Of a stretch of 38,071 nucleotides of DNA, positions 734-24,467 are shown piece after piece. A model generated the notes under the pieces. That model was not told the origin of the DNA, did not search any database, and was given only the letters and a program-made list of their open reading frames with translations. Numbering within the stretch: the first letter of the stretch is position 1; each line of letters starts with the position of its first letter. Where the stretch lies: assembly GCA_031178045.1 (NCBI GenBank), contig JAPSJT010000006.1, positions 1 to 38,071 of the forward strand, written 5' to 3'. The position numbers and the translations under genes are program-made. The stretch comes from Agromyces sp. (GTDB lineage Bacteria > Actinomycetota > Actinomycetes > Actinomycetales > Microbacteriaceae).

Positions 734-1939
734 TCAGTCGGGCAGCGGCACCATGGTGACCGGCCGTCCGTCGCGCACGCGAACGGATGCCTCGGGGCGG
801 TCGACGACGACGACGACGCCGTCGGCCGTGGCCCAAGCGCGCCACCACGCGGCATCCGTCACCTCGAGCTCGTCGGCCGCGAGCGTGCGTCGACCGATCG
901 TCATCGGCTTGACGTGCCGCATCCACCCGGCAACGCCCTCGAGCGTCCGGCGCTGCACCGCCGGGATCTCTCCCGCGGCGGTCGGGCCGACGTTCAGCAG
1001 CAGGCGTCCGCCCCGCGAGACGACATCGGCATAGAGACGGGCGAGCTCACGGGGCGAGAGCGTGAGCGACTCGTCCTCGACGCGGTTGTAGCCGAACGAG
1101 AAACCGAGGCCGCGGCAGTGCTCCCAGCCCGGATCGGTCTCGTGCTGCGTGTGCGCGTCGTACTCGCTCGTGCGGTAGTCCCACACGTCGACGCCCCAGC
1201 GGTCGTTGACGATGCCGTCGGGCACGACGCGCCGGTAGTGCGCGAGGAGCGAGTCGATCGAGTGCGGGCCCGGCAGCTTGCCAGCGTCGGGCCAGTCGAT
1301 GTCGTTCCAGACGACGTCGGGCAGGTATCGCTCGATGAGGTCGGCGACGTGCCGGTGGGCGTACTCGTTGTACGCGGCATCCGTCGGCCGCAACCGGCTG
1401 ACGTCATCGCTCGAGCGATGCGGCGGGAGGTCGGTGACCGCCCAGTCGAGACCGCCCGAGTAGTAGACGCCGAAGCGGATTCCCTCGGCGCGCACGGCCT
1501 CGGCGAGCGGTGCGATGAGATCGCGGCGAGGGCCGCGCGCGACCGTGCTCAGCTCGCCGGCGCCCGGGGCGTCCCACAGGGCGATGCCGTCGTGGTGCTT
1601 CGTCGTCGGCACGACGTAGTCGGCGCCGACCGCCCGGAAGAGCCGTGCCCACTCCGTGGGGTCGTACGCCTCCGCCCGCCAGGCGTCGAGGAAGTCCGCG
1701 TAGGGCGCACCGCCGTACTCGCGCGCGTGGTGCCGCGCAGCGGGCGACCCGTCGATGCGGATCGTGTTCGCGTACCACTCGGCGTACGCGTTGTGCGCGA
1801 ACCACTCGTCGTCGGGCACGGCCCCGAGGGCCCCGGTCGGCTCGGCCCAGGCCGGCACCGAATACGCACCCCAGTGCACGAAGATGCCGAGGCTCGCGTC
1901 GCGCGCCCACTGCGGAAGGGCTCGTCGCGGCTCGCTCAT
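734..1939 (-). CDS. alpha-L-fucosidase (GH29), cytoplasmic
   Basis: A 401-residue GH29 enzyme, which releases terminal alpha-L-fucose by a retaining mechanism. Seen: N-terminal GIFVHWGAYSVPAWAEP, the mid-barrel TKHHDGIALWD, the GVYYSGGLDW strand, and VVWNDIDWPD, where the family's nucleophile Asp is expected, then the C-terminal LLLNVGPTAAGEIP. There is no signal peptide, so it would act inside the cell on imported oligosaccharides. The ATG overlaps the stop of the upstream DUF624 gene as ATGA, indicating translational coupling in the operon with the binding protein and permeases. A longer in-frame extension upstream exists but runs through the DUF624 gene and has no family similarity. GH29 also includes enzymes active on other L-sugars or D-arabinose-type substrates, so the exact glycoside is not certain. 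Confidence 0.9.
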   Translation of the reverse strand: MSEPRRALPQWARDASLGIFVHWGAYSVPAWAEPTGALGAVPDDEWFAHNAYAEWYANTIRIDGSPAARHHAREYGGAPYADFLDAWRAEAYDPTEWARLFRAVGADYVVPTTKHHDGIALWDAPGAGELSTVARGPRRDLIAPLAEAVRAEGIRFGVYYSGGLDWAVTDLPPHRSSDDVSRLRPTDAAYNEYAHRHVADLIERYLPDVVWNDIDWPDAGKLPGPHSIDSLLAHYRRVVPDGIVNDRWGVDVWDYRTSEYDAHTQHETDPGWEHCRGLGFSFGYNRVEDESLTLSPRELARLYADVVSRGGRLLLNVGPTAAGEIPAVQRRTLEGVAGWMRHVKPMTIGRRTLAADELEVTDAAWWRAWATADGVVVVVDRPEASVRVRDGRPVTMVPLPD

Positions 1940-2616
1940 TCGCCGCCGTCGGTCCCGGGCGCCACGCGGCCTCGTCGGGGCCGCTCGGGCACCGCGACGA
2001 TCGCGAGCGCGATGCAGCCGAGGGCGGGGATCACGAGCGGCAGGAGCTGCCAGGTCACGACGCCCGCGAAGCCCGCCGTCGCGACGAGGTACGCGCCGCC
2101 GGCGACGTCGTCGCGCAGGGCGCCCGGCACCGACTTCAGCGCGCCGAGCCAGCCGAGCTCGGGCGTCCACCGACCGGCCGCCGTGAAGAGCGCGAGCGCG
2201 AGCGCGGCGAGCCCGAGCCAGCCCACGAGCCCGACGATCGGGCCCCCCGGCAGCAGGCCCGTCGTCGCGAGATCGATGTCGAGCAGCAGCACGAGCACGA
2301 GCATCACGGATGCCGCCCCGACGCCGAGCGAACCCATGAGACCAGCGCGCACGTCTCGCCAGAACCAGTCGAGCGCGGAGTCCTCCGCCTTCAGGTAGCG
2401 CCGCAGGTGGCGCACCCCCGCGGCGAGCGCGGCGGGGAGCGTCAGCAGGGGCAGCGAGACGAGGGCGACGAGGATGCCGACGAGCAGCACCTCGCCGAGC
2501 AACCCGAACGCGCTGCGCGCGCCCGGGAAGCGGGCCTCGGCCGCGGAGTCGTCAGTGGTCGGTCCGCTGCCGGAGAGGGCGGCGCGGCGGGCGGCACGCT
2601 CGATGGCTCGCGACAT
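1936..2616 (-). CDS. DUF624 (YesL-like) membrane protein
   Basis: A 226-residue membrane protein with about five hydrophobic segments (roughly residues 37-65, 97-117, 124-147, 174-190 and 192-208) and the DUF624-like stretch HLRRYLKAEDSALDWFWRDV. YesL/DUF624 proteins are regularly encoded beside carbohydrate ABC importers, but their biochemical role is not established. Here it lies 6 bp after the MalG-type permease and overlaps the fucosidase start by 4 bp. AAGGGG about 9 nt before the ATG is a plausible ribosome-binding site. The function is left open: a transport accessory protein is the simplest reading of the context. Confidence 0.82.
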   Translation of the reverse strand: MSRAIERAARRAALSGSGPTTDDSAAEARFPGARSAFGLLGEVLLVGILVALVSLPLLTLPAALAAGVRHLRRYLKAEDSALDWFWRDVRAGLMGSLGVGAASVMLVLVLLLDIDLATTGLLPGGPIVGLVGWLGLAALALALFTAAGRWTPELGWLGALKSVPGALRDDVAGGAYLVATAGFAGVVTWQLLPLVIPALGCIALAIVAVPERPRRGRVAPGTDGGE

Positions 2617-2622
2617 CCGCGG

Positions 2623-3543
2623 CTACCCCTTGAGCCCCTGGGTCGCGACGCCCTCGACGAGGAAGCGCTGGAAGACGATGAAGAAGATGAGGATCGGCAG
2701 CAGCGCGAGGAAGGACACCGCAACGGTCGCGCCGTAGTCCGAGGTCGAGGTGGCGTCGTTGTAGAGCCGCAGGGCGATCGGCAACGGGTACTTCTCGGGG
2801 CTGTTCACGTAGAGCAGTGGACCGAGGAAGTCGTTCCACGTCCAGATGAACGTGAAGATCGCACTCGTGATGAGCGCCGGCTTGATGAGCGGCACGATGA
2901 TCGAGAAGAAGATCCGGAGGTGCCCGGCGCCGTCGATGCGCGCCGCCTCGTCCATGTCGCGCGGGATGTTGCGGATGAACTGCACGATGAGGAACACGAA
3001 GAACGCCTCGGTCGCGAGGAACTTCGGCAGGATCAGCGGCCAGTACGTGTCGACCAGTTCGAGCTTATTGAAGAGGATGTACTGAGGGATGATGATGACG
3101 TGGAACGGCAGCAGGAGCGTGCCGATCATCGCGGCGAAGAGCACGCCGACGCCCCGGAACTTGATGCGGGCGAAGGCGTACGCGGCGAGCGCCGAGGAGA
3201 TGAGCGTGCCGATGACCGCCATCACGGCGATGAACAGCGAGTTCGCGAAGAACTGCCAGAGCGGGGTGCCGCCGATGCCCTCGACGACCTTGACGTAGTT
3301 GTCGATGGTCGGGTTCTCGGGCAGCAGGCCGGGGTTCTGCCCGAACTCGCTCGAGGGCTTGAACGTCGAGAACAGCAGCCAGACGAGCGGATAGAGCACG
3401 ATCGCGGTGAACGCGAGCAGCACCACGAACCAGATGACGGTGTTGATCGTCTTGCGTCTGGGGGCGCGACGCCGCGGTGCGCGGCCGCCTTCGGTCGTGA
3501 TCTCGGCGAACTCGGCGCGAGGCACATCGGTCGTGTACGTCAT
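2623..3543 (-). CDS. carbohydrate ABC transporter permease, MalG type
   Basis: A 306-residue inner-membrane permease of the MalG/CUT1 class. After a basic cytoplasmic N-terminus (about 1-33) it has six hydrophobic segments and the EAA loop that contacts the ATPase (DEAARIDGAGHLRIFFSIIV, residues 198-217). It ends in the MalG-typical EGVATQGLKG. It pairs with the MalF-type permease upstream, whose stop overlaps this ATG (ATGA). No ATP-binding subunit is encoded anywhere in the window, so a shared MsiK/MsmX-type ATPase encoded elsewhere is expected, as in many Gram-positive sugar importers. A longer in-frame reading upstream is the shadow of the neighbouring permease. Confidence 0.94.
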   Translation of the reverse strand: MTYTTDVPRAEFAEITTEGGRAPRRRAPRRKTINTVIWFVVLLAFTAIVLYPLVWLLFSTFKPSSEFGQNPGLLPENPTIDNYVKVVEGIGGTPLWQFFANSLFIAVMAVIGTLISSALAAYAFARIKFRGVGVLFAAMIGTLLLPFHVIIIPQYILFNKLELVDTYWPLILPKFLATEAFFVFLIVQFIRNIPRDMDEAARIDGAGHLRIFFSIIVPLIKPALITSAIFTFIWTWNDFLGPLLYVNSPEKYPLPIALRLYNDATSTSDYGATVAVSFLALLPILIFFIVFQRFLVEGVATQGLKG

Positions 3544-4553
3544 CGGTTCTCTCCGGCGTAGTGCACCCAGGACTTCTGGGTCTTGAACAGGATGAAGGCG
3601 ATGATGGCGACGACGACCACGAGCACCCACGCCATCGCCGAGGCGTAGCCCATCTGCAGGTCGGCGAAGCCTCGCTTGTAGAGGTACACCGTGTAGAAGT
3701 TCGTCATGCCGGCGGGGCCGCCCGACCCGTTCGAGATGATGAACGCCGACGCGAACACCTGGAAGGCGTTGATCGTCTCGAGCAGCAGGTTGAAGAAGAT
3801 GACGGGCGAGAGCATCGGGATCGTGACCGACCAGAACTTGCGCACCGGGCCGGCGCCGTCGACCTCGGCCGCCTCGTAGAGCTCGGCCGGCACCTGCTTG
3901 AGGCCGGCGAGGAAGATCACCATGGGTGCGCCGAACTGCCACACCGCAAGCAGGATCATCATGGGCAGCACGAGGGCCACGTTGCCGACCCAGCCGCCGA
4001 GCTGGATGCCGAAGAGGTTCAGCGAGCCGTCGACCGGGCCACCCGTCGAGAACATCGCGCGCCAGACGATCGCGACCGAGACCGACGCACCGATGAGCGA
4101 GGGGGCGTAGAAGGAGGAGCGGAAGAACCCGCTGCCCTTGTTGCGGTAGTTGAGCAGCAGTGCGATGCCGAGCGCGGCGGCGAGCTTGATCGGGGTGCCG
4201 ACGAGCACGTACACGAGCGTGATCTGCACCGACTGCAGGTAGTTCGGGTCATCCGTGAACATCCGCACGAAGTTGTCGAACCCGACCCACTCGGGCTCGG
4301 TGAAGAGGTTGTACTTCGTGAAGGCGAGGTACAGCGAGTAGATCATCGGGCCGACCGTGAGGCCGAGGAAGCCGATCAGCCACGGCACGAGGAACCCGTA
4401 CCCGGCGATGGTCTCGCGGCGCCCGTGCGCCCGCCTGCCTGCGGAGACGGGTGGGGTGCCCCCGCCTTCGGCGCGGCGGAGCTCTCGCATGCCGCGCCGC
4501 ATGCTCCTCGACCCGGCTTCCGCCGTGACGATCGATTCGGTTTCCGTGCTCAC
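3540..4553 (-). CDS. sugar ABC transporter permease, MalF type
   Basis: A 337-residue CUT1-family permease. Residues 1-48 are a basic, probably disordered cytoplasmic tail; the first membrane segment begins at GYGFLVPWLIGFLGLTVGP (51-69). The EAA loop lies at 227-246 (starting EAAEVDGAGPVRKFW). Together with the MalG-type partner it forms the channel of the importer. It starts with GTG, preceded by GGGAG 8 nt upstream. The gene is separated from the binding-protein gene by an 84-bp gap containing a strong hairpin, which probably lowers permease expression relative to the binding protein. Confidence 0.94.
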   Translation of the reverse strand: MSTETESIVTAEAGSRSMRRGMRELRRAEGGGTPPVSAGRRAHGRRETIAGYGFLVPWLIGFLGLTVGPMIYSLYLAFTKYNLFTEPEWVGFDNFVRMFTDDPNYLQSVQITLVYVLVGTPIKLAAALGIALLLNYRNKGSGFFRSSFYAPSLIGASVSVAIVWRAMFSTGGPVDGSLNLFGIQLGGWVGNVALVLPMMILLAVWQFGAPMVIFLAGLKQVPAELYEAAEVDGAGPVRKFWSVTIPMLSPVIFFNLLLETINAFQVFASAFIISNGSGGPAGMTNFYTVYLYKRGFADLQMGYASAMAWVLVVVVAIIAFILFKTQKSWVHYAGENR

Positions 4554-4637: not shown

Positions 4638-5957
4638 TTACTGGTTGAGGACGACGTCCATCTCGCTGAAGAACTGGTCGACGGCGTCATCGACGGTCAG
4701 GGTGCCGTAGCCGAGTTCCTGGCCGATGAGGCGGAACTTCTCCTCGAGCGTGCCGTAGCCGACGATCGGCACGGGCGGGGCGTCGCCGAGGCGGTCTTCG
4801 ATGGATGCCTCGTAGTCGGCGATCTGCTGGCTGAGCGGGTCGAGCTCGGCGCCCTCGAGCGCGGTCTCCGACGCGGGCAGGCCGCGGTTGGTGCCGAACG
4901 CCTCGCCCGACGCGGGCGAGTTCACAAGGAAGTTCACGAGCGTCGCGGCGGCCTCGGGGTGCTCGGTCGTCGAGGCGATCGAGTGCAGCATGGAGGGCTT
5001 CAGGTAGAGGTCCTTCGCGCCCTCTTCGGTCACCGGCGGCTCGATCAGGCCGAGCTCGGTGTAGTCGGCGCCGAGGTTGCCGAGGTAACCGGCACCGAAG
5101 TTGTCCCACGTGAGCTCGCTCGCCGTGAGGCCCGTGTCGAAGCCCGAGAGGGGGTAGACCTCCTCGAGGCGCTGCTGGCCGATCACAGTGCCGTCGGTGC
5201 GGATCGTGTCGCCCTGCTCCCAGAACTCGGCGAGGTCCTCCTCGGTGAAGTTCGGCTCGCCCTCGTCGGTGAAGAGGTCCTCACCCTTGGCGCGCTGCTG
5301 GACCTCGAAGTTCTGGATGCGGCCCGTGTAGTCGGTGCCGCCCCAGAGCTCGACGCCCGCCGCGGCGGCCGCGTCGGTCACTTCCTTCATCCACGCGTCG
5401 TAGTCCTGCCAGTCGCCGCCGGCGAACTCCTCGACCCCGACCTGCTCGAGGAGCTTCGGGTTCGTGTACATGCCCCAGGCGTTGGTCGAGGTCGGGATGC
5501 CGGTGGTCTCGCCGCCGACCACGCCGATCTGCAGGATGTTCTCGCTGAGCGGCTCGGTGTCGATGATGTTGCCGAGGTACGGCTCGAGGTCGAGCAGGAG
5601 GCCGTTCTCGGAGTACTGACGGAGGTAGGAGTAGTCGAACTGCATGACGTCGGGCAGGCCGCCGCCGGCGGCCTCGGTCTGCCGCTTCTCCCAGTACTCG
5701 GGGAAGCCGAGGAACGAGGAGTTGACGGTGATGTTCGGGTACTCCTCGTTGAATGCGGCGATGGCCTCCTCGTAGAGGGCGGCACGCACGTCGTTGCCCC
5801 AGAAGGCCAGGTTCAGGGTGACCTTCTCGTCGGGGTCGTACGTCGCGGCGGCCTCGTCGGCTCCACCGCCGGCGGCGCACCCCGTGAGCACGAGCGCTGC
5901 GCTCGCTGTGAGCGCCGCGGCGGCGGCCGCCATGCGGCGCTTGCGAATGTTGAACAT
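4638..5957 (-). CDS. extracellular sugar-binding lipoprotein of an ABC importer
   Basis: A 439-residue solute-binding protein, family 1 type. A basic start, a hydrophobic stretch and the lipobox LTGC (Cys27) define a lipoprotein signal, so the mature protein is anchored on the outside of the membrane. The body has family features such as LNLAFWGNDVRAALYEEAIA and, near the C-terminus, segments on gaining and losing sub-domains typical of CUT1 binding proteins (ASTTEHPEAAATLVNFL). The ligand is probably an oligosaccharide processed by the co-transcribed fucosidase, but that is inferred from position. GGGAGG lies 6 nt before the ATG. It is the first gene of the operon, under a strong promoter with one or two operators. 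Confidence 0.94.
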   Translation of the reverse strand: MFNIRKRRMAAAAAALTASAALVLTGCAAGGGADEAAATYDPDEKVTLNLAFWGNDVRAALYEEAIAAFNEEYPNITVNSSFLGFPEYWEKRQTEAAGGGLPDVMQFDYSYLRQYSENGLLLDLEPYLGNIIDTEPLSENILQIGVVGGETTGIPTSTNAWGMYTNPKLLEQVGVEEFAGGDWQDYDAWMKEVTDAAAAAGVELWGGTDYTGRIQNFEVQQRAKGEDLFTDEGEPNFTEEDLAEFWEQGDTIRTDGTVIGQQRLEEVYPLSGFDTGLTASELTWDNFGAGYLGNLGADYTELGLIEPPVTEEGAKDLYLKPSMLHSIASTTEHPEAAATLVNFLVNSPASGEAFGTNRGLPASETALEGAELDPLSQQIADYEASIEDRLGDAPPVPIVGYGTLEEKFRLIGQELGYGTLTVDDAVDQFFSEMDVVLNQ

Positions 5958-6008: not shown

Positions 6009-6024
6009 GGGAAAGCGCTTCCCC
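6009..6024. promoter_or_regulatory. LacI-family operator of the ABC transporter operon
   Basis: GGGAAAGCGCTTCCCC, with the central CG of the perfect AAGCGCTT core expected for LacI-family hinge-helix insertion. On the minus strand it begins 2 bp downstream of the -10 box (6026-6031), so a bound repressor would cover the transcription start. Confidence 0.78.
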
Positions 6025-6081: not shown

Positions 6082-7020
6082 TTATCGGATGCTGCCGGCA
6101 ACCGCATCGCGGTCGCAGACGAGCCGCCCCCGCTCGACCCGGAGGGGAACGGCGAAGATCGCGCTGCGGCGCGCGGCGGCGGCATCCGCCCCCTCGATCG
6201 AGTCGAGCTCGCTCCCATCCCAGTGCGGATGCGTGAAGTAGTAGAGCGTCGCCTGCTCGCCCTCGACGACCACGTCGCCGTGGCGCCCGAACGTCTCGTC
6301 GCCGCGGCGGCGGCCGGGGGCGCCGAGGATGACCTCGTCGGGCTCACCCTGTCGAGTCCACGCGCGCGCGTCGCTCGAGCGGTGCACGCCCATCCCCCGC
6401 CACTCGTCGACGAGGAGCCACCACCAGCCGCCGAGCGCGAAGACGTTCGGGCCCTCGTGCGGCCGTCCGCCGAGCACCCGGCCCTCCACGCGCCAGTCCG
6501 CCAGGTCGTCGCTCACCGCGCACCACGTGCTCGAGGCATCCGCTTCGTCCTTGTACCAGAGTCGCCAGCGCCCGTCGGGGCAGCGCGCGACGCACGCGTC
6601 GATGACGCGATCCGAGCTCAGCGCGAGCTCGCGCGCGAACGACCACCGCTCGAGGTCGTCGCTCGTGTACTCGACGATGCGGCGGGGGTGCCCCTCCCAC
6701 CGGTCGGGCACGCCGTCGATGACCGTGAGATACATGCGATACCGCTCGCCGTCGTCGATGACCTCCGGCGCCCAGTGGGTCTCGGGGCCGGCGCTCCGCT
6801 GCAGGCCGGCGACCGTGCCGGCGTAGTGCCAGCGCCGCGCGTCGCTCGACCTGGCGACGCCGATGCGGCTGCCGTGCACCCACGCGACGCCCGGCTCGTC
6901 GACGGACGCGCGCCGCTGCGTGTAGAACATGAACCACTCCCCCGTGTCGCGATGCCGGATCACCGTGGGGTCGGTAGCGCCGTCGTGAACCGGGTCATGG
7001 AAGAGGGCGTCGTCGGTCAC
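6082..7020 (-). CDS. GH43/GH117-like five-bladed beta-propeller glycoside hydrolase
   Basis: A 312-residue protein made of repeated beta-propeller blades, for example DPTVIRHRDTGEWFMFYTQ (17-35) and repeats of the type SSDARRW. Acidic residues placed as in GH43-related enzymes are Asp17 (DPTVI), Glu86 (HWAPEV), Asp141 (VIDACV) and Glu189 (HEGPNV). There is no signal peptide, so action is cytoplasmic. The exact family (GH43, GH117, GH130-like) and the linkage cut cannot be fixed from the sequence. The start is GTG, 7 bp after the stop of the Gfo/Idh gene, with GAGAGAG as a weak ribosome-binding site inside that gene's end. It is last in the four-gene chain with DUF6807, cupin and Gfo/Idh genes. 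Confidence 0.82.
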   Translation of the reverse strand: MTDDALFHDPVHDGATDPTVIRHRDTGEWFMFYTQRRASVDEPGVAWVHGSRIGVARSSDARRWHYAGTVAGLQRSAGPETHWAPEVIDDGERYRMYLTVIDGVPDRWEGHPRRIVEYTSDDLERWSFARELALSSDRVIDACVARCPDGRWRLWYKDEADASSTWCAVSDDLADWRVEGRVLGGRPHEGPNVFALGGWWWLLVDEWRGMGVHRSSDARAWTRQGEPDEVILGAPGRRRGDETFGRHGDVVVEGEQATLYYFTHPHWDGSELDSIEGADAAAARRSAIFAVPLRVERGRLVCDRDAVAGSIR

Positions 7021-7027
7021 CGCTCTC

Positions 7028-8122
7028 TCAGCCCCGGCGCAGGTCGGTCACCGGGCTCTCGAGGCTGCGTCGACGGTCGACGTCGGCGCGCAGCGTCTCG
7101 GGCGTGACGGTGACCCCCTGCGCCGCCGAGGAGTAGATCGCCGTGACGAGTTCGAAGGAACGCGCCGGGTCGCTCGCCGTCGAAGGCAGCGGGTCACCTG
7201 CGCGGACGGCGGCGTAGATGTCGCGGATGAGCGCGTCGTGCCCGCTCGGCTCCTCGAGCTCGGGCAGCGCCCACCCGGCGGCGACCTCGGCGTCGACGTG
7301 CGGTGCGGGGGTGATCCGCCAATTGTCGTGACCGTGCCCGTAGAGGTGGTCGACCGTCACGGTCGCGAGCTCGGTGTCGATGCGGATCGAGCTCGTCTCG
7401 CGCGGTGAGACGGCACTCGTGATCACGGAGGCCACGGTGCCGTTCGCGAAGGCCACGACCGCGGTCGAGACATCCTCGGTCTGCGTCTCGCGATCGAGGC
7501 GCCAGAGCTGGCCCTGCACGCTCGCCCAGTCGCCGAGGAGCCACGCGAGCAGGTCGATCTGGTGGATGCCGTGCCCGAGCGTCGGCCCGCCGCCCTCCGT
7601 CGCCCACTTGCCCCGCCACGGCACGGCGAAGTAGGCCGGGTCACGGTACCAGAGGGTCTGGCACGTCGCGACGAGCGGGCGTCCGAGGGCGCCCGAGTCG
7701 AGGAGCCGGCGCACGTGCGCGGCGGCCGAGCCCGTGCGCTGCTGGAAGACGACGGCGAAGCGCCGGTCGTTGCGCTCGGCGGCGGCCGTCATGGCGTCGA
7801 GCTCGTCGAGCGAGAGCGCGGCGGGCTTCTCGCAGACGACGTGCAGGCCCGCGTCGAGCGCCGCGATCGCCTGATCCGCGTGGGCGACGGGCGGGGTGCA
7901 GATGTGCAGCACGTCGATGCCGCCGCGCTCGAGCAGGGCGTCGAGCGAGCCGAAGACGGCCGGACCGCCCCAACGCTCGGCGAACGCCTGCGCCGGAGCG
8001 AGCTCGCGGTCGGCGACGGCGACGAGCTCGGCATCGGGCGTCGCGGCGATCGCCGCGGCGTGCGCGTTCGCGATCGCGCCCGTGCCGATGATGGCGGCGC
8101 GCAGCGGGATGGACTCAGGCAT
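7028..8122 (-). CDS. Gfo/Idh/MocA family NAD(P)-dependent oxidoreductase
   Basis: A 364-residue sugar or cyclitol dehydrogenase. The Rossmann N-terminus has IIGTGAIANAH (11-21), and the family's EKP signature sits at 98-100 with the catalytic Lys. The C-terminal beta-sheet domain carries the substrate-side motif GGGPTLGHGIHQIDLLAWL with the conserved His/Asp. Such enzymes oxidise or reduce a hydroxyl/keto group of sugars, often at C3. The substrate is unknown. The ATG overlaps the end of the cupin gene by 8 bp, so it is translated from the same message as the DUF6807 and cupin genes, and the GH43-like gene follows 7 bp later. That arrangement suggests a joint role in oxidising and cleaving a modified glycoside. 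Confidence 0.92.
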   Translation of the reverse strand: MPESIPLRAAIIGTGAIANAHAAAIAATPDAELVAVADRELAPAQAFAERWGGPAVFGSLDALLERGGIDVLHICTPPVAHADQAIAALDAGLHVVCEKPAALSLDELDAMTAAAERNDRRFAVVFQQRTGSAAAHVRRLLDSGALGRPLVATCQTLWYRDPAYFAVPWRGKWATEGGGPTLGHGIHQIDLLAWLLGDWASVQGQLWRLDRETQTEDVSTAVVAFANGTVASVITSAVSPRETSSIRIDTELATVTVDHLYGHGHDNWRITPAPHVDAEVAAGWALPELEEPSGHDALIRDIYAAVRAGDPLPSTASDPARSFELVTAIYSSAAQGVTVTPETLRADVDRRRSLESPVTDLRRG

Positions 8123-8858
8123 CGGTCTCCTTCGAGGTCAGGGGGTGGGTCTCGTAGCGGCGCAGGCGTCCGCACATGCCGAATGCCGGCGCCGGGAGCG
8201 TGGTCGCGACCCGTCCGGTGGCGAGCCCGGGGTCGCGCCCGGCCTCGAGGGCATCGAGGCGGTCGCCCGTCTCGCCCGCCGTCGCGAGAGCGCCGGCACG
8301 CCAGCGCTCGCGCCACTCGGGGACTCTCGGCGCGACGAGGGCGCGGGCCCGCTCGTGCAGCCGGGCGAGCTGCCGCCGGTCGACGGCGCCGTCGGGATCG
8401 AAGAGCGCGAGGAACCCCTCGACCGCGAGGTCGCGCCGGGCGTGTGCGGCGGCAAGCCGCTCGCGATCGGGACGATCGGCACCGGGCAGCGTCGCCGCGG
8501 CGCGATAGCGGGCGGCGTCGGCGAGCACGTCGTCGGGGAAGGTCATGACCGCGTCGCCCGCCTCGGGCAGGCCCGCGTTCTGCATGATGACGCGCACCGC
8601 GAGTCCGCCCTCGTTGACGACGCGGTGGATGACGCCCGGGTCGAACCAGACGAGGGCGCCGGCCTCGAGCGGATGCTCCGCGAAGCCCGAGCCGTCGACC
8701 GTCTGCAGGCGTCCGCGTCCGGCGATGACGAGGTAGGCCTCGGCCGAGACGGTGTGCAGATGCGGCGTGCCGCCGGCCAGTCCGTCGGGCGCGACGCCCT
8801 CGTAGACGTCGAGCTCGCTCACCGACGTGGCACCGGGGAACACCGGCGCGCCGCTCAT
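8115..8858 (-). CDS. cupin-domain protein with helical C-terminal extension
   Basis: A 247-residue protein. Residues 20-95 form one cupin barrel: the metal motif is seen as HLH (33-35) with Glu40 and His78 (GVIHRV), so a bound divalent metal is likely. The remaining 150 residues are helical and Arg/Ala-rich (about 105-200) with no domain I recognise. Cupins of this type are often sugar isomerases/epimerases or small-molecule sensors; the reaction is not known. Its ATG overlaps the DUF6807 stop as ATGA and its stop lies within the Gfo/Idh start, so the three are tightly coupled. Confidence 0.85.
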   Translation of the reverse strand: MSGAPVFPGATSVSELDVYEGVAPDGLAGGTPHLHTVSAEAYLVIAGRGRLQTVDGSGFAEHPLEAGALVWFDPGVIHRVVNEGGLAVRVIMQNAGLPEAGDAVMTFPDDVLADAARYRAAATLPGADRPDRERLAAAHARRDLAVEGFLALFDPDGAVDRRQLARLHERARALVAPRVPEWRERWRAGALATAGETGDRLDALEAGRDPGLATGRVATTLPAPAFGMCGRLRRYETHPLTSKETDA

Positions 8859-9838
8859 GACGCACCCAGCAGGTCGCGCAGCACGCCCGACCCGGCCTCG
8901 GCGAGCCGGGCGGCGCGCTCGGGATCGCTGCTGCCGTCGGCGATGACGACGCCGTAGCGCAGCGTCATGGTCGCGCCCGGCTCGACCGCATGCTCCTCGC
9001 TGAAGAACGGCGCGGGGCAGAGGCACGCGAACTGCTCGGTGCGGGCGAACCACTGGGGCGGGTGCTGCAGGTTGCCCGGATCGTCGATCATGACGACGGT
9101 CGACGCACCGCCCGTGCCGTCGTGCCGGCCGCTGAAGCCCATCCACGGCGCCCGGGTGCCGCGCAGCTCCTCGCCGCCGACGACGCCGGGAGCGAGCAGG
9201 TCGCCGCCCGTGAACGAGCGCGGCCCGCGCCAGAAGAGGCCGCCGTAGCCGGCGTTCTCTCGCCCGCGCGTCGTCGGCGAGCCGATCGGAATGGTGCGAT
9301 CGGTGCGATTCGTCATGCGGGTCTCGAACCCGAGCAGCCACGCGTCGTCGTCGATGACGGATGCCGCGAGCGTGCGCCGCTCGTCGAAGATCGTCTCGCC
9401 CCCCTCGGTGCGCCATTCGAGGCGCTCGACGACGCGGGCCTCGCCGGCCGCGGCATCCGTCGTCGTGGCCCCGCTCGCCTCGGCCGCGCTCGCCTCGGCC
9501 GCGCTCGCCTCGGCCGCGCTCGCCTCGAAGGCGAGGTGGCGCTGCTCGCCGTTGTTCGGCAGCTGCACGTAGCCCTCGCCGCGCACGAAGGTCGGACCGC
9601 CCCAGAAGTTCTCGTCGCCCACGACGGGCAGCGACCAGGTGATGCCCTTGTGCCAGACGTGGTCGTGGGGGCGGAAGAGCGAGACGACCTCGCCGGCGAG
9701 CGTGCGGATCGGGCTGAAGTAGGGGCGCGGCGATTCGAGCCGTACGTCGGTCGGGCGGTGCACGTACTCGGCGAGCACTGCCCCGTCCGCGCGCACGATC
9801 AGCCGGTCGGCCTGCTCCTCGATGCGGAGGTCGGTCAT
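8855..9838 (-). CDS. DUF6807 (PmoA-like) protein
   Basis: A 327-residue protein of the family annotated as 'PmoA family' or DUF6807. Seen: RPYFSPIRTLAGEVVSLFRP and the signature DHVWHKGITW (59-68), then WGGPTFV and a late GYGGLFWRGPR. It is not a methane mono-oxygenase subunit: it has no membrane segments, and the name comes from a gene-neighbourhood label. The fold is probably a beta-sandwich related to sugar-mutarotase/lyase domains. Residues about 105-122 are a low-complexity insert made of repeated EASAA, encoded by a 15-bp tandem repeat. GAGGAG lies 5 nt before the ATG. It is the first gene of the four-gene operon behind its own promoter and operator. Confidence 0.85.
   Translation of the reverse strand: MTDLRIEEQADRLIVRADGAVLAEYVHRPTDVRLESPRPYFSPIRTLAGEVVSLFRPHDHVWHKGITWSLPVVGDENFWGGPTFVRGEGYVQLPNNGEQRHLAFEASAAEASAAEASAAEASGATTTDAAAGEARVVERLEWRTEGGETIFDERRTLAASVIDDDAWLLGFETRMTNRTDRTIPIGSPTTRGRENAGYGGLFWRGPRSFTGGDLLAPGVVGGEELRGTRAPWMGFSGRHDGTGGASTVVMIDDPGNLQHPPQWFARTEQFACLCPAPFFSEEHAVEPGATMTLRYGVVIADGSSDPERAARLAEAGSGVLRDLLGAS
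9473..9527. repeat. 15-bp tandem repeat inside the DUF6807 gene
   Basis: Three exact copies of GCTCGCCTCGGCCGC (9473-9517) plus 10 bp of a fourth. It encodes EASAA repeats in the protein, probably a surface loop whose length can vary by slippage without a frameshift. Confidence 0.9.
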
Positions 9839-9895: not shown

Positions 9896-9911
9896 GGGAA
9901 AGCGCTATCCC
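9896..9911. promoter_or_regulatory. LacI-family operator of the DUF6807 operon
   Basis: GGGAAAGCGCTATCCC, 57 bp upstream of the DUF6807 start codon and 5 bp downstream of the putative minus-strand -10. It matches the other sites except for one A/T change in the right arm. Confidence 0.75.
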
Positions 9912-9924: not shown

Positions 9925-11091
9925 TCATCGTCCGAGCTCGAGTTCGGCCGGGCGCTCGAGGGCGCCGACCCGACTCGTCGGCCAGCGCGGGTCGGTCGTG
10001 AGCACCTCGATGCCCTCGGCATCGACGAGCACGGTGTCCTCGACCTTCGCGCCGGGCGCGCTGGGGTTCCAGGCGAACGCGTGCGAGGTCTGCACGACAT
10101 CGGCAGCGCCGGGCACGGCGCGGGGGTCGCGCCCCGCGTAGCCCGCCGCACCGCCCTGGTGGTGCCGGCGCCACTCCTCGGCACCGAACCCGCTGCGGCC
10201 GTACGCCGCGGTGCCCGCGGCGAACACGTCGCCGAGCGTCGCGCCCGGGCGCGTGGCGCCCAGGAAGGCGGACTCGACGTCGAGGATGCGCCGCGCGGCA
10301 TCCGCTTCGGCAGGGTCGGCCGCGCCGAACCGCACCCAGCGCGTCGCGTTCGCGATGAGACCGTGCCGCCGGCCGCAGACCACGAGCATCGCGCGATCGC
10401 CGAGGGAACCGGCGGTCGGGAGCGGGTGCCGGTGCCGGTGCCGACTCCGTCCGGCGACGAGGGTGACGAGGGGATCGATGCCGCGCGCCACGAGTTCGTG
10501 CGCGAGCCTCGCCGCCACGAGGCGCTCGGTGTCGTACGGGCTCACGGCGGATGCGGCATCCGTCAGCACCTCGGCGACGTCGCGGCAGAGCCGGCGGTAT
10601 CGGGCGAGCTCGGCGGGCAGGAGGCTCGCGCGCGCGGCGCGCAACTCGGCGGCGAGCGCCTCCTCTTCGATGTCGGCGATTCCGGCCGGCGCGAGCGGCT
10701 CGTGCCACGGGACGCGGTCGACCGCGAGCGCCTCGAGAGCGCCGAGCTCCTCGTCGAGCATGCGGTCGGCCTCGTTGTCGAAGACCCGCAGCCGGTCGCC
10801 GCCCGGCGTCACGACCACCGCGACGACCGGATCGCCCGCGAGCGACACGTGGGTTCGCGCGCCGTCGAGGTACCAGGCGAGCGCCGTGTGCGAGCGCAGC
10901 ACCAGCGACCGGGCATCGCGGCGCTCGAGCACCTCGAGCAGTCGTGCGCGCTTCACGGCGCGGTCGGCGACCGAGGGCGGGAGGGCGCGTTCGCCGGTCG
11001 CCGCGGGCGCGCTCGTCGCGGGCGCGCTCGTCGCAGACGCGCTCGTCGCAGACGCGCTCGTCGCAGACGTGCTCGTCGCAGACGCGCTCAT
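9925..11091 (-). CDS. M24 (creatinase/aminopeptidase-fold) protein lacking most metal ligands
   Basis: A 388-residue 'pita-bread' protein: an N-terminal creatinase-like domain (about 45-150) and a C-terminal M24 domain (about 155-370). The order of M24 motifs is recognisable, but the ligands are changed. LVVCGRRHGLIANATRWVRF replaces the usual D-x-G...SDITRT, giving no first Asp and Asn248 for the second. HHQGG (310-314) keeps a His. NPSAP replaces the first Glu motif, while KVEDTVLV retains Glu351. A metallopeptidase is therefore unlikely; a creatinase-like metal-free hydrolase or binding protein fits better. Residues 1-30 are a Ser/Ala/Thr repeat. The ATG overlaps the LacI stop (ATGA), so regulator and M24 gene are co-transcribed. 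Confidence 0.85.
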   Translation of the reverse strand: MSASATSTSATSASATSASATSAPATSAPAATGERALPPSVADRAVKRARLLEVLERRDARSLVLRSHTALAWYLDGARTHVSLAGDPVVAVVVTPGGDRLRVFDNEADRMLDEELGALEALAVDRVPWHEPLAPAGIADIEEEALAAELRAARASLLPAELARYRRLCRDVAEVLTDAASAVSPYDTERLVAARLAHELVARGIDPLVTLVAGRSRHRHRHPLPTAGSLGDRAMLVVCGRRHGLIANATRWVRFGAADPAEADAARRILDVESAFLGATRPGATLGDVFAAGTAAYGRSGFGAEEWRRHHQGGAAGYAGRDPRAVPGAADVVQTSHAFAWNPSAPGAKVEDTVLVDAEGIEVLTTDPRWPTSRVGALERPAELELGR

Positions 11092-11098
11092 CGCACCG
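11009..11098. repeat. 15-bp tandem repeat at the 5' end of the M24 gene
   Basis: About six copies of GCGCTCGTCGCAGAC; the copies at 11024, 11039 and 11054 are exact and the flanking ones have few changes. It encodes the Ser/Ala/Thr-rich N-terminus. The M24 start codon and the LacI stop codon lie in the last copy, where one base change (CGTC to CATC on the plus strand) creates the ATG. Confidence 0.88.
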
Positions 11099-12098
11099 GC
11101 CCCGTGCTGCCGCGAGCCTCGAGCCTCGGCCGGTAGAGCACCGAGTGCTCGATCGGGCCGCCCGCGATGAGCGTGCGCAACCGCGCCCACACCTGTGCGC
11201 CGATCTCGGTGCGCGGCACCGACATGCTCGTGAGCGGCGGTGTCGCGAAGCTCGCCATCGGCACGTCGTCGAAGCCCGCGAGCGAGAGCTCGCCCGGCAC
11301 GTCGATGCCGAGCTCGCCGAGTCGTTGCAGCAGTCCGAGCGCGACGAGGTCGTTGAAGGCGATGACCGCCGTGGCTCCGCCGACGTGGGCAGCGACCACG
11401 GACTCGGCGGCCGCATAGCCGTCGTCGAGGCGCGAGCCGCCGGGCACGACGTCGATGCGCACATCGGGGTGGGCGGCGATCGCCTCGTCGACTCCCCGCA
11501 GTCGCTCGGCGTTCGAGGCGCTCGTCGCCGGCCCGCTGACATACGCGATGCGCCGGTGCCCGAGCTCGCGCAGGTGGTCGACGAGGTCGCGGATGCCGCG
11601 CACGTAATCGACGCCGACGATCGGCACGGCGGCATCGGGCAGCGGCCGGTTCACCACGACGACGGGTGACACGCGCCCGACGAGGCGGCGGAGTTGCGAC
11701 TCCGGCATACGCGGCGCGCACAGCACGAGCGCGTCGCATCGCTGGCGCGCCTCGAGCGCCGTCGCCTCCTCGTCGTCGACGCGCTCGGCCGTGTCGGCGA
11801 CGAGCACGCGATACCCGTCGGATGCCGCCGCTCGGCTCAGCCCCTTCAAGATGCCCTGGAAGAGCGGGTTCTCGAGGTCGGGCACGACCATCGCGATCGT
11901 GTCGTTGCGCCCGTGCACGAGGCTGCGCGCCGCGACGCTCGGTGAATAGCCGAGCGCGGCGATCGCGCTCTGCACGCTTCGCACGATGCCGGGATCGACC
12001 GATTGCTTGCCGTTGAGCACTCGAGAGACCGACGCCTGCGAGACACCGGCCTTCGCCGCGACGTCGGCGATCGTGATCGCACGAGTGCGTTCGGACAT
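11088..12098 (-). CDS. LacI-family transcriptional regulator (divergent from the uronate operon)
   Basis: A 336-residue LacI/GalR regulator. The N-terminal helix-turn-helix reads TIADVAAKAGVSQASVSRVL, followed by the hinge SPSVAARSL that inserts into the central CG of the operator. The rest is a periplasmic-binding-protein-like sensor domain (NDTIAMVVPDLENPLFQGI; late motif GFDDVPMASFATPPLTSM). AGGAGG before the second in-frame Met (12098) decides the start; the longer frame to 12200 has no leader support. It faces the dehydrogenase-kdgD-dehydratase-aldehyde dehydrogenase operon across 116 bp with two operators, so it most likely represses both. The effector is probably a uronate/aldarate or its parent sugar. 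Confidence 0.93.
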   Translation of the reverse strand: MSERTRAITIADVAAKAGVSQASVSRVLNGKQSVDPGIVRSVQSAIAALGYSPSVAARSLVHGRNDTIAMVVPDLENPLFQGILKGLSRAAASDGYRVLVADTAERVDDEEATALEARQRCDALVLCAPRMPESQLRRLVGRVSPVVVVNRPLPDAAVPIVGVDYVRGIRDLVDHLRELGHRRIAYVSGPATSASNAERLRGVDEAIAAHPDVRIDVVPGGSRLDDGYAAAESVVAAHVGGATAVIAFNDLVALGLLQRLGELGIDVPGELSLAGFDDVPMASFATPPLTSMSVPRTEIGAQVWARLRTLIAGGPIEHSVLYRPRLEARGSTGPVR

Positions 12099-12182: not shown

Positions 12183-12198
12183 GAGAAAGCGGTTTCTC
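12183..12198. promoter_or_regulatory. LacI-family operator of the uronate/aldarate operon
   Basis: GAGAAAGCGGTTTCTC has perfect six-base arms (GAGAAA/TTTCTC). It covers the start of transcription and ends 16 bp before the GTG of the first gene. Confidence 0.75.
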
Positions 12199-12214: not shown

Positions 12215-13138
12215 GTGCGCGTCGTCGTCACCGGGTCGTCCGGCCGGCTCGGCCGGAGCGTCTGCGCGGGCCTCGCGGCATCCGGTCATGAGGTCGTCGG
12301 CATCGATCTCGCCCCGGCTGGGCTCGAGGGTGTCGACGAGCGAGGCGCCGACCTCGCCGACGCCCGCGGAACCGAGCGGATGCTCGCCGGGCTCCGGCCC
12401 GAGGCGGTCGTGCACCTCGCCGGCATCGCCGTCCCGTTCAGCGCGCCCGAGCGCGACATCCTGCTCACGAACACCGCCCTCGCGCACACGGTGCTCGCCG
12501 CGTCCGCCGCCGCCGGCGTGACGCGAGTGCTCGCGGCCTCGAGCCCCACGGTCGTCGGATACAGCTCGCCGGCATGGCGTGCCGCCTCGGTGCCGATCGA
12601 CGAGCGGCATCCGCTCGAACCGGCGCACGCGTACGCCCTCTCGAAGCTCGTGATCGAGGAGACGGTGCGCATGTTCTCGCGCACGACGGCCGGCGCGTTC
12701 GGGTTCTTCCGCCCGTGCTACGTCGTCTCGCCCGAGGAGTGGGCGGGCGCGCCGACGCAACAGGGCCACACGATGGCCGAACGCCTCGCCGACCCGGCAC
12801 TCGCCGCGGTGAGCCTCTTCAACTACGTCGACGCGCGCGACGCGGCGGGATTCGTCGACGCCTGGCTCGCGGCGCCCGGCGAGCTCGTCGACGGCGAAGG
12901 CTTCTTCGTCGGCGCGGCCGACGCGCTCGCCACCCGCCCGGTCGCCGAGCTCTGGCGCGAGTTCGCACCCGGTCTCGGCGAGTCCGCCGACCGGCTCACC
13001 GGTCGCGAGCCCGTGTTCGCGATCCGCAAGGCCGCCCATCGACTCGGCTGGACGCCCCGGCACGACTGGCGCACCGAGCTCGCCGCGGCCGTATCCCCCA
13101 CCACCCGAGGCACCACCGCCGAGACGAGGACCGCATGA
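12215..13138 (+). CDS. NAD-dependent epimerase/dehydratase-family sugar dehydrogenase (probable uronate dehydrogenase role)
   Basis: A 307-residue extended SDR protein. It has the nucleotide-binding GSSGRLG (7-13), the strand VVHLAG (65-70) and the catalytic YALSK (Tyr140, Lys144). The family includes epimerases, dehydratases and uronate dehydrogenases. Since the next three genes take an aldarate to 2-oxoglutarate, the missing first step is oxidation of a uronate or aldose, and this is the only dehydrogenase placed to do it. That assignment rests on context: it is about 40 residues longer than characterised bacterial uronate dehydrogenases. The start is GTG, with AAGGAGG 4 nt upstream. Its stop overlaps kdgD as ATGA. 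Confidence 0.86.
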   Translation: MRVVVTGSSGRLGRSVCAGLAASGHEVVGIDLAPAGLEGVDERGADLADARGTERMLAGLRPEAVVHLAGIAVPFSAPERDILLTNTALAHTVLAASAAAGVTRVLAASSPTVVGYSSPAWRAASVPIDERHPLEPAHAYALSKLVIEETVRMFSRTTAGAFGFFRPCYVVSPEEWAGAPTQQGHTMAERLADPALAAVSLFNYVDARDAAGFVDAWLAAPGELVDGEGFFVGAADALATRPVAELWREFAPGLGESADRLTGREPVFAIRKAAHRLGWTPRHDWRTELAAAVSPTTRGTTAETRTA

Positions 13139-14082
13139 CCACACCCGCTCCCGCGCTGAACTTCGACGGCGTGCTGTTCTTCCCGGTCACCCCGTTCGAC
13201 CGCGCCGGCCGCGTCGACCTCGACGTGCTCGCCGAGCACGTCGAGTCCCGCCTGCCGTTCGCGCCCGGCGCCGTGTTCCCGGCGTGCGGTACCGGCGAGT
13301 TCCACGCGCTCTCCGCTGCCGAGGTCGTCGACGTCGTGCGCCGGAGCGTCGAGGTCGTCTCGGGGCGAGTGCCCGTCATCGCCGGCGCAGGCGGACCGCT
13401 CGGACACGCCATCGAGCTCGCGCGAGGGGCAGCGTCGGCCGGTGCCGACGGACTGCTCCTCCTGCCGCCCTACCTCGTCTCGGGCACGACGGCCGGGCTC
13501 GTCGCCTGGGTCGAGGCGGTCGCCGCGGCATCCGAGCTGCCCGTCGTGGTCTACCACCGCGGCACCGCCCGCTACACGGCCGACGCGATCACACGGCTCG
13601 CGGCGAACCCGAAGGTCGCGGGCTTCAAGGACGGCACGGGCGACATCGGCCTCGCCCAGGAGATCGTGCTCGCCGCCGACGCCGCCGGTCGCGACGATTG
13701 GGCGTTCTTCAACGGCCTGCTCACCGCCGAGCTCAGCCAGGGCGCCTACCGCGGCATCGGAATCCCGCTGTATTCCTCGGCGGCGTTCGCGATGATCCCC
13801 GAACTCGCCGCGCTGCACTACGGCGCGTACGTCGGCGGTGACGAGGCGACCCGGATGACGCTGCTGCGGGAGTTCTACGCGCCGCTCGTGCGGCTGCGCG
13901 ACGAGACCCCGGGGTTCGGCGTCTCGCTCATCAAGGCGGGCCTGCGCCTGCGCGGCCTCGAGGTGGGATCGGTGCGACCGCCACTCGTCGATCCCACGCC
14001 CGAGCAGGAGGCGCGGCTCTCCGCCCTCCTCGACTCGGGGCTCGCCCTCGCCGAACGGCTCTCGCCGGTGCCGGTGCCATGA
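13135..14082 (+). CDS. kdgD: 5-dehydro-4-deoxyglucarate dehydratase (KdgD)
   Basis: A 315-residue member of the dihydrodipicolinate synthase/N-acetylneuraminate lyase family. It converts 5-dehydro-4-deoxy-D-glucarate to 2,5-dioxopentanoate, releasing CO2 and water. KdgD-type features are VFPACGTGEFHALS (47-60), the Tyr of VVVYHRG (Tyr140), the Schiff-base Lys165 in GFKDGTGDI, and NGLLTAELSQGAYRGIG with the following YSSAAF. The length is normal. The start and stop each overlap a neighbour as ATGA. The product is the substrate of the aldehyde dehydrogenase two genes downstream, which supports the call over a plain DapA-like lyase. 2-keto-3-deoxy-arabonate dehydratase is a close alternative giving the same product. 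Confidence 0.9.
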   Translation: MTTPAPALNFDGVLFFPVTPFDRAGRVDLDVLAEHVESRLPFAPGAVFPACGTGEFHALSAAEVVDVVRRSVEVVSGRVPVIAGAGGPLGHAIELARGAASAGADGLLLLPPYLVSGTTAGLVAWVEAVAAASELPVVVYHRGTARYTADAITRLAANPKVAGFKDGTGDIGLAQEIVLAADAAGRDDWAFFNGLLTAELSQGAYRGIGIPLYSSAAFAMIPELAALHYGAYVGGDEATRMTLLREFYAPLVRLRDETPGFGVSLIKAGLRLRGLEVGSVRPPLVDPTPEQEARLSALLDSGLALAERLSPVPVP

Positions 14083-23592: not shown

Positions 23593-24467
23593 GCGCCCAC
23601 CCGCGCCTGTCGATGAACCAGGCGACGTTGAAGTACGCGCCGCTCGACGAGGCCCTGCGCCTCGTCGTCGCGGGCGGATACGAGTCGATCGGGCTCTGGC
23701 GAGAGCCCGTGCTCGACGTCGGCCTGGCCGAGGCGGCGCGCCGGTTGGGCGACACGGGACTCCGCTTCTCGACCTACTGCCGCGGCGGCTTCTTCACCAT
23801 GGCCGAGGGCGCGGCCAGGCGAGCGTCGATCGATGACAACCGTCGCGGCATCGAGGAGACTGCGACGCTCGCCGCCGCGGGCGCGCCCGGATCGACCCCG
23901 ATCTTCGTGCTCGTCGCCGGCGGTCTCCCCGAGGGGTCGCACGACCTCGTCGGCGCGCGCGAACGCGTCGCCGACGCGATCGCCGAGCTCGTCCCCGACG
24001 CCGAGGCCGCCGGCGTGACCCTCGCCATCGAGCCGCTGCATCCGATGTACGCCGCCGACCGGGCGGTCGTTTCGACGCTCGGGCAGGCGCTCGACCTCGC
24101 CGAGCCGTTCGACCCTGCCGTCGTCGGCGTGGCGGTCGACACGTTCCACATCTGGTGGGACCCCGAGGTGCTCCCCCAGATCGCGCGAGCCGGGGCATCC
24201 CGACGCATCGCGACGTACCAGGTGTGCGACTGGAAGACGCCCCTGCCCGCCGATGTGCTGCTGAGCCGGCACTACCCCGGCGACGGCGTCATCGACTTCG
24301 CCTCGCTGACCCGCGCGGTCGAGCAGACGGGCTACGACCGCGACATCGAGGTGGAGATCTTCAACCAGCAGATCTGGGACGCGCCGTGGCCCGAGGTCGT
24401 CGCCCGCACCGCCGAGTCGTTCGGTGCGGCGGTCGCCCCGCACCTCGTGGCATCCGTCACTGCGTGA
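23589..24467 (+). CDS. sugar phosphate isomerase/epimerase (xylose-isomerase-like TIM barrel)
   Basis: A 292-residue AP-endonuclease-2/xylose-isomerase-like barrel. Metal-binding positions of the family are visible: Glu in LAIEPLHPMY, Asp-His in AVDTFHIWWDP, and Glu in IEVEIFNQQIW. The N-terminus (LSMNQATLKYAPLDEAL) is typical of this subgroup. The GTG start overlaps the DUF993 stop as GTGA, and a longer frame upstream is a shadow of DUF993. Relatives act as isomerases, epimerases, or, in keto-glycoside pathways, as lyases. With the dehydrogenase and DUF993 it makes up a three-enzyme pathway. Its 3' end overlaps the convergent membrane-protein gene by 11 bp. Confidence 0.9.
   Translation: MSAHPRLSMNQATLKYAPLDEALRLVVAGGYESIGLWREPVLDVGLAEAARRLGDTGLRFSTYCRGGFFTMAEGAARRASIDDNRRGIEETATLAAAGAPGSTPIFVLVAGGLPEGSHDLVGARERVADAIAELVPDAEAAGVTLAIEPLHPMYAADRAVVSTLGQALDLAEPFDPAVVGVAVDTFHIWWDPEVLPQIARAGASRRIATYQVCDWKTPLPADVLLSRHYPGDGVIDFASLTRAVEQTGYDRDIEVEIFNQQIWDAPWPEVVARTAESFGAAVAPHLVASVTA

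Follow-up and report, generated by a model that had tools for sequence, protein, structure and literature searches.

A DUF6807-cupin-Gfo/Idh-GH159 gene chain in Agromyces and its possible role in oxidation-assisted processing of imported glycosides

Introduction

What reaction unites a DUF6807 protein, a cupin, a Gfo/Idh/MocA dehydrogenase, and a propeller hydrolase whose genes lie packed together in an actinobacterial genome? The four genes occupy positions 6,082 to 9,838 of a 38,071-nucleotide stretch of Agromyces sp. DNA (Microbacteriaceae; GenBank assembly GCA_031178045.1, contig JAPSJT010000006.1, positions 1 to 38,071), referred to here as the window, which comes from a draft assembly of 2.94 Mb in 325 contigs that is about 90% complete. 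An original prediction, made from the window alone, proposed that the chain acts on an imported glycoside that is oxidized and then cleaved, with a GH43-like propeller hydrolase taking part in the cleavage. DUF6807 is still labeled "PmoA family protein" in places; as nothing except that annotation name supports a PmoA or methane oxygenase identity, it was set aside. A literature search of incomplete coverage turned up no functional study of DUF6807, only bare mention of its number, and none of the "PmoA family protein."

Results and Discussion

DUF6807 and cupin genes accompany Gfo/Idh dehydrogenases

DUF6807 was found in 52 of 249 Microbacteriaceae genomes, and the neighborhoods of 80 DUF6807 genes were compared, 61 from the window and family stretches and 19 from loci in named genomes located with the cupin as seed. 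The 60 family stretches examined hold 63 of the 69 DUF6807 match rows other than the window's own; the six left out are second copies in G224, G050, and G120 plus those of G214, G045, and G023. The gene caller missed the DUF6807 genes of L072 and L089, which therefore stand outside the 80, as well as that of L131, outside the family. Two loci (L103 and L107) duplicate the genomes of L035 and L034, leaving 78 distinct genes, and L078 is a split gene.

When relationships to Gfo/Idh genes were scored with a profile trained on the Gfo/Idh families near DUF6807, 15 of the 80 DUF6807 genes were fused to such a gene, 46 were directly adjacent to one on the same strand, 11 had one within three genes, and 8 had none. 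Both duplicates belong to the adjacent class, and removing them gives 15, 44, 11, and 8 of 78. A Gfo/Idh partner is thus fused, adjacent, or within three genes in 72 of 80 cases, or 70 of 78 distinct ones, while the window's genome carries seven Gfo/Idh genes in total, a number that would place one within three positions of about 1.5% of genes by chance (assuming about 2800 genes). In one chain (L058), Pfam recognizes both DUF6807 and Gfo/Idh domains. The pairing extends beyond the Microbacteriaceae, where 14 of 19 DUF6807 stretches had an adjacent Gfo/Idh gene, 4 had none, and one yielded no call for the DUF6807 gene itself; a haloarchaeal plasmid carries the pair as well.

The cupin is rarer and nearly an obligate partner of DUF6807. 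It occurred in 18 of the 249 family genomes, 17 of which also had DUF6807 (3.8 expected), and 18 of 20 cupin copies had a DUF6807 gene no more than about 3 kb away, the exceptions being those of G022 and G164. In the cupin-seeded search, DUF6807 was directly upstream at all 19 loci, and a Gfo/Idh gene flanked the pair at 17. Both DUF6807 and the cupin are associated with Gfo/Idh dehydrogenases much more often than expected by chance, and neither is regularly found without them in related genomes, as the original prediction had anticipated. Such pairing strongly suggests that DUF6807 works on the product or the substrate of the Gfo/Idh enzyme.

Properties of the four proteins

All four open reading frames lie on the minus strand; two neighboring pairs overlap, by 4 and 8 bp, and the third is separated by 7 bp, in agreement with the tight coupling first described. 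By inspection, all four proteins lack a hydrophobic N terminus, and genes of a sugar importer adjoin the chain. The cytoplasmic, imported-substrate part of the original prediction therefore gained support; that the substrate is a glycoside is something we infer.

The DUF6807 model (predicted local distance difference test score [pLDDT], 94) has a galactose-mutarotase-like supersandwich fold, with structural matches at Z scores of 14.5 to 17.6 over 193 to 255 residues. Treating matches within 1 Z unit as tied, we found the model similar to a polysaccharide lyase family 26 (PL26) rhamnogalacturonan lyase (Z, 17.6; 3.0 Å over 238 residues), rhamnogalacturonan lyase 1nkg (Z, 14.8), GalM/aldose-epimerase-like chains (Z, 14.5 to 16.2), and the C-terminal domain of β-galactosidase. 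Noncatalytic proteins matched similarly (a TPR-domain protein at Z 17.2 and an NDH-PSI subunit at 16.3), and Foldseek scores were weak, with a best E value of 1.9e-4. Although the fold is shared with GalM, PL26, and the β-galactosidase domain, sequence identity is only 5 to 14%, and no profile-level link to 13 aldose epimerases was found (hhalign probability, 0.1%). The supersandwich hosts mutarotases, lyases, and nonenzymes, and the modeled fold is compatible with a lyase, hydrolase, or mutarotase role. The DUF6807 gene also contains 15-bp tandem repeats (9467 to 9527) that fall in a low-confidence loop of the model and were absent from six relatives checked; 15-bp tandem repeats also lie at the start of the neighboring M24-like gene (11008 to 11095).

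One possibility is that DUF6807 has no catalytic function and serves to bind a ligand or to regulate, with the cupin and Gfo/Idh proteins being unrelated neighbors. Four of the 80 genes (L067, L071, L073, and L075, the last confirmed by Pfam) encode LacI-DUF6807 single chains, each directly 5' of a Gfo/Idh gene, and the occurrence of the fold in noncatalytic proteins points the same way. However, the polar residues conserved across the alignment (a DHxxHxG motif, E153, R193, Y198, R204, and R266) are intact in all four LacI fusions, and the 15 fusions to Gfo/Idh, along with the tight coupling of most other genes to one, make a purely regulatory role very improbable.

All 18 cupin sequences compared keep the metal ligands H33, H35, E40, and H78. 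The cupin model (pLDDT, 91) combines a sugar-isomerase-like cupin head with a helical C-terminal half, and its Foldseek matches, which resemble sugar isomerases and ketoisomerases, fall mostly on the head. The closest named relative is from Agromyces ramosus (Microbacteriaceae; 80% identity over the best segment).

Among solved chains, the dehydrogenase is closest to 3q2k (138 bits), followed by 3q2i, DgpA, DgpA1, and "P2B11 Glucuronide-3-dehydrogenase" (80 bits), the last being the only one of these five labeled a 3-dehydrogenase. We take 3q2k to be WlbA-like; WlbA and DgpA act at C3. A W(Y/F)R..Y..PWRG.W..EGGG..G.HQ.D-type motif occurs in 45 of 47 members of the DUF6807-linked Gfo/Idh family and is shared by P2B11 and in part by 3q2k. 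These two are thus the closest or motif-sharing solved relatives of the window enzyme, but at 138 and 80 bits its substrate may differ from theirs. At the Microbacterium memoriense locus (L101), two Gfo/Idh genes (7954 to 9081 and 10831 to 11883) flank the DUF6807-cupin pair; the one beside a GH159 gene is 65% identical to the window's, and the other scores lower.

The fourth protein changed identity. Its best solved-structure match is Ch_Gaf159A (PDB 7zei; E value, 1.3e-74), which covers residues 5 to 306 of 312, and its D17, D141, and E189 align opposite D19, D142, and E190 of that enzyme, residues whose mutation inactivates Ch_Gaf159A, according to its published description (PMC9278983). 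The same text describes glycoside hydrolase family 159 (GH159) enzymes as acting on β-galactofuranosides and more weakly on α-L-arabinofuranosides, and as thought to be active on intracellular oligosaccharides. Given this near-full-length similarity and the conserved D/D/E triad, we replaced the GH43 assignment with GH159. With all three catalytic residues intact, the protein should hydrolyze furanosides unaided, with no prior oxidation of the substrate, making it unnecessary to cast it as the enzyme that cleaves an oxidized glycoside, the role it was first given. It resembles Ch_Gaf159A also in having no evident signal peptide and differs in sitting among DUF6807, cupin, and Gfo/Idh genes, with an activity that is predicted from sequence.

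A proposed model for glycoside processing

Known oxidation-assisted cleavage systems combine a C3 dehydrogenase, sugar-phosphate-isomerase-like proteins acting as eliminase and hydratase, and a reductase (PMC7676230, PMC10628242). In the levoglucosan route, elimination and hydration are performed by LgdB1 and LgdB2, both annotated as sugar phosphate isomerases; the LgdA-LgdB1-LgdB2-LgdC locus shares with the window the presence of Gfo/Idh, LacI, sugar ATP-binding cassette (ABC) transporter, and sugar-phosphate-isomerase-like proteins, whereas the available text mentions no DUF6807, cupin, or GH159 (PMC7676230), and the window shows one isomerase-like barrel. The O-/C-glycoside β-eliminases AtOGE and PuCGE share a proposed logic of C3 oxidation, metal-assisted cleavage, hydration, and reduction; AtOGE has a Mn2+-containing TIM barrel (PMC10628242), in contrast to the modeled β-supersandwich of DUF6807. 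In the window's regulon (Table 1), copies of a single operator stand ahead of three Gfo/Idh genes and one AP_endonuc_2 TIM barrel, to which DUF6807 and the metal cupin are added.

The most likely explanation, which we hold tentatively and with somewhat less than even confidence, is oxidation-assisted processing of an imported glycoside. First, plain hydrolysis by GH159 would remove terminal L-arabinofuranosyl (or galactofuranosyl) residues. What is left of the imported glycoside, which may be a uronide, would then be oxidized by the Gfo/Idh enzyme with NAD+ at a ring hydroxyl, most likely that of C3. DUF6807 would act directly on the keto-sugar, most likely cleaving it by elimination or hydrolysis, and the metal cupin would tautomerize or hydrate the resulting compound. 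Its reduction, isomerization, and splitting would fall to the second and third Gfo/Idh enzymes, DUF993, and the xylose-isomerase-like barrel, and the divergent set of a short-chain dehydrogenase/reductase (SDR), a dihydrodipicolinate synthase (DHDPS)-family protein, an enolase-superfamily protein, and an aldehyde dehydrogenase (ALDH) would channel a sugar acid towards 2-oxoglutarate. The dehydrogenase linkage, the importer, and the 3-dehydrogenase-like relatives lend partial support to the oxidation-then-cleavage idea of the original prediction, minus the propeller hydrolase as cleaver.

A broader proposal, which we regard as doubtful at present, is that DUF6807 represents a new keto-glycoside-processing class with a mutarotase fold and eliminase or hydrolase activity, partnered by a Gfo/Idh enzyme, either fused or coupled to it, and often by a metal cupin. 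Such an enzyme would hand its product to a DUF993-Gfo/Idh-TIM module and, in some bacteria, would be fused to LacI. If correct, DUF6807 would gain a function and DUF993 a role, and another fold would join the enzymes cleaving oxidized glycosides, in soil and plant-associated actinobacteria.

Several results weigh against processing by oxidation. Eight of the 80 DUF6807 genes have no Gfo/Idh gene within three positions, and DUF6807-cupin pairs occur without one in L051, L078, L108, and L097 (at a contig end). The fold matches to noncatalytic proteins and the missing profile link to aldose epimerases count on the same side. The dehydrogenase falls below the equivalog cutoffs for 3-dehydrogenases (levoglucosan, 90.9 versus 650; UDP-GlcNAc 3-dehydrogenase, 72.5 versus 450; BT_2158, 22.1 versus 750), and its top NCBIfam score, 113.8 bits, is to inositol 2-dehydrogenase, far below the cutoff of 355. 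The 3-keto-disaccharide hydrolase family PF06439 (DUF1080) had no match in the draft genome, about 90% complete, and was dropped as a candidate for the missing cleaving enzyme. A GH42 control family was also enriched, being present in 50 of 52 DUF6807 genomes compared to 127 of 249 overall, so genome lifestyle explains part of the co-occurrence described below. Finally, the contents of two loci, L035 and L122, suit a different route as well.

According to that alternative, GH159 and other enzymes release L-arabinose or a hexuronate, Gfo/Idh makes the C1 lactone, mutarotase-like DUF6807 supplies the right anomer or opens the lactone, and an enolase-superfamily dehydratase, a DHDPS protein of the KdgD/L-KDA-dehydratase type, and ALDH complete a Weimberg-like or oxidative uronate route. 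The oxidative uronate route comprises Udh, cycloisomerase, KdgD, and ALDH, and both routes lead to 2-oxoglutarate. Clustering of 1271 predicted proteins from the 80 stretches placed, within seven genes of DUF6807, the main Gfo/Idh family in 45 stretches and the cupin in 36, a count biased by the 19 stretches chosen via the cupin (two stretches also duplicate genomes). Members of the SDR-DHDPS-enolase-ALDH set recurred in 16 to 22 stretches (SDR, 22; KdgD type, 21; enolase type, 19; ALDH, 16), followed or matched by the M24-like protein (20), DUF993 (17), and GH159 (13). The DHDPS protein exceeds the PRK03620 cutoff (382.7 versus 278 bits) and falls below that of the narrower TIGR03249 (266.6 versus 373.95), while the SDR has its best solved match in 4id9 (68 bits; no stated substrate) and only weak ones to uronate dehydrogenases (39 to 44 bits). 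In Streptomyces locus L122, a cupin-free DUF6807-Gfo/Idh pair lies beside pectinesterases, pectate lyases, GH43, a DHDPS protein, and an L-arabinonate dehydratase over its equivalog cutoff (912.6 versus 882). Recurrent furanosidases near DUF6807 and the GalM-type proteins among its fold matches also speak for monosaccharide oxidation. However, among the nearest solved dehydrogenases P2B11 is labeled a 3-dehydrogenase and others are taken to act at C3, no obvious task in such a scheme falls to the cupin or the DUF993/TIM set, and the Gfo/Idh-DUF6807-cupin unit also occurs without the SDR-DHDPS-enolase-ALDH set (L098 and L100). The L-arabinose isomerase gene near the triad in L035 can be read either way. 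We consider monosaccharide oxidation the main rival, possible though on the unlikely side.

With glycoside processing as the preferred reading, neighboring genes hint at the substrate. The Gfo/Idh-DUF6807-cupin unit lies beside GH10 in L046 and GH42 in L109, a Streptomyces plasmid places a DUF6807 unit beside GH30-type, GH10, and GH62 genes, and a protein with an α-L-arabinofuranosidase C-terminal domain (alpha-L-AF_C) adjoins the unit in M. memoriense. In the window itself, the context is GH159, an α-L-fucosidase-family protein, and the KdgD-type set. A common theme would be plant cell wall oligosaccharides containing L-arabinose, uronic acid, or both.

Extent of the regulon

The chain lies behind the palindrome GGGATAGCGCTTTCCC, as originally proposed, and the site is kept in relatives: an operator with 0 to 3 mismatches stands 60 to 95 bp ahead of the DUF6807 gene and of the solute-binding protein gene in Agromyces loci L091 to L095 and in four of four Demequina loci. 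The unit is not limited to positions 6,082 to 9,838, however. Allowing up to 3 mismatches, the operator pattern gave 14 matches in the window (seven palindromic sites, at 6009, 9896, 12183, 19401, 19457, 20974, and 32284, on both strands) compared to a mean of 0.39 in shuffled sequences. With up to 2 mismatches, 6 sites were found in the 2.94-Mb assembly, 5 of them on the window's 38-kb contig, and the reversed-pattern control gave 0. Some of this enrichment is built in, because the pattern was derived from two sites of the window itself. Operator copies precede the importer and DUF6807 genes, an ABC exporter-type gene, the gene of the 447-amino-acid Gfo/Idh, and the set of Gfo/Idh, DUF993, and TIM-barrel genes, and a weaker copy lies in the LacI/SDR divergence (Table 1). 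The four-gene chain is probably the core of a LacI-controlled regulon that imports plant cell wall oligosaccharides for cytoplasmic breakdown.

With its three Gfo/Idh genes and xylose-isomerase-like barrel, the gene set behind the operator copies also resembles E. coli YcjS/YcjR/YcjQ, which carry out oxidation, epimerization, and reduction of a glycoside or sugar. By analogy, one Gfo/Idh enzyme would make the 3-keto form, the TIM barrel or the cupin and DUF6807 would invert a neighboring center, and another Gfo/Idh enzyme would reduce the product, a scheme in keeping with the likeness of the cupin head to sugar isomerases and ketoisomerases. DUF993 and the oxidative set seem to point instead to full catabolism rather than interconversion, and we judge epimerization to be improbable.

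An M. memoriense homologue of the exporter, 69% identical, lies directly upstream of Gfo/Idh-DUF6807-cupin and is itself preceded by an operator. An exporter gene behind the shared operator suggests export or self-protection within the sugar regulon.

Table 1. Features of the window belonging to or neighboring the DUF6807 chain
Feature	Coordinates	Strand	Remarks
α-L-Fucosidase family (PF01120) protein	734..1939	-	
Small membrane protein, recurrent near transporter	1936..2616	-	Weak MusI-family match, 23.3 bits (cutoff, 160)
ABC sugar permease	2623..3543	-	
ABC sugar permease	3540..4502	-	
Solute-binding protein, sugar ABC importer	4638..5957	-	Lipobox by inspection
LacI-type operator (putative) ahead of solute-binding protein gene	6009..6024		Pattern scan
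GH159 propeller furanosidase (predicted), GTG start	6082..7020	-	Glyco_hydro_43, 39.5 bits, over curated cutoff
Gfo/Idh/MocA dehydrogenase	7028..8122	-	GFO_IDH_MocA, 101 bits, over curated cutoff
Cupin, ATG start	8115..8858	-	Cupin_2, 47.2 bits, over curated cutoff
DUF6807 (PF14100)	8855..9838	-	Pfam, 251.9 bits (gathering cutoff, 27)
LacI-type operator (putative) GGGATAGCGCTTTCCC	9896..9911		Palindrome; in 86-bp gap between M24-like stop and DUF6807 start
M24-like protein, recurrent DUF6807 partner	9925..11091	-	Pfam; without canonical metal ligands
LacI-family regulator	11088..12098	-	Pfam
Weaker operator (putative)	12183..12198		3 mismatches; between LacI and divergent SDR gene
SDR	12215..13138	+	Solved relatives include uronate dehydrogenases (weak)
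DHDPS-family protein, 5-dehydro-4-deoxyglucarate dehydratase subfamily	13135..14082	+	PRK03620 over cutoff
Enolase-superfamily sugar-acid dehydratase/cycloisomerase-like protein	14079..15254	+	
Aldehyde dehydrogenase	15251..16732	+	
Second Gfo/Idh, 447 amino acids	18034..19377	-	Operators 19401 and 19457 upstream
Second LacI-family regulator	19588..20640	+	
Third Gfo/Idh	21044..22300	+	Operator 20974 upstream
DUF993 protein	22303..23592	+	
Xylose-isomerase-like TIM barrel (PF01261, AP_endonuc_2)	23613..24467	+	
ABC exporter-type protein	30536..32242	-	Operator 32284 about 40 bp upstream

Co-occurring genes in other genomes

DUF993, for which the literature search (incomplete in coverage) returned no functional paper, was present in 72 of the 249 genomes and in 47 of the 52 with DUF6807 (15 expected); by genus, the two coincided in 24 of 26 cases compared to 11.3 expected. 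Only 23 of the 47 copies lay within 25 kb of DUF6807, so the association holds even where the genes are unlinked. Copies in G022, G026, G039, and G203 were excluded, as those genomes have no DUF6807. Among GH42-positive genomes, DUF993 occurred in 46 of 50 with DUF6807 and 10 of 77 without (odds ratio, 77); among GH42-negative genomes, where only two had DUF6807, there was no significant association. The Fisher tests ignore phylogeny, except for the genus-level version.

The M24-like protein is a further recurrent partner. M24 metallopeptidases bind metal through D, D, H, E, and E, and the first, second, and fourth of these ligands are replaced in 23 of 23 M24-like sequences, with positions assigned from this motif rather than from an aligned canonical M24 protein. 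With three ligands replaced, the protein is unlikely to be an aminopeptidase, and its pita-bread fold possibly serves a novel activity. Elsewhere in the window's genome, three ThuA-family matches lie on other contigs, and the window also encodes an 824-amino-acid protein (25316 to 27790) whose DUF4062, NB-ARC, and TPR matches give it a STAND-like architecture.

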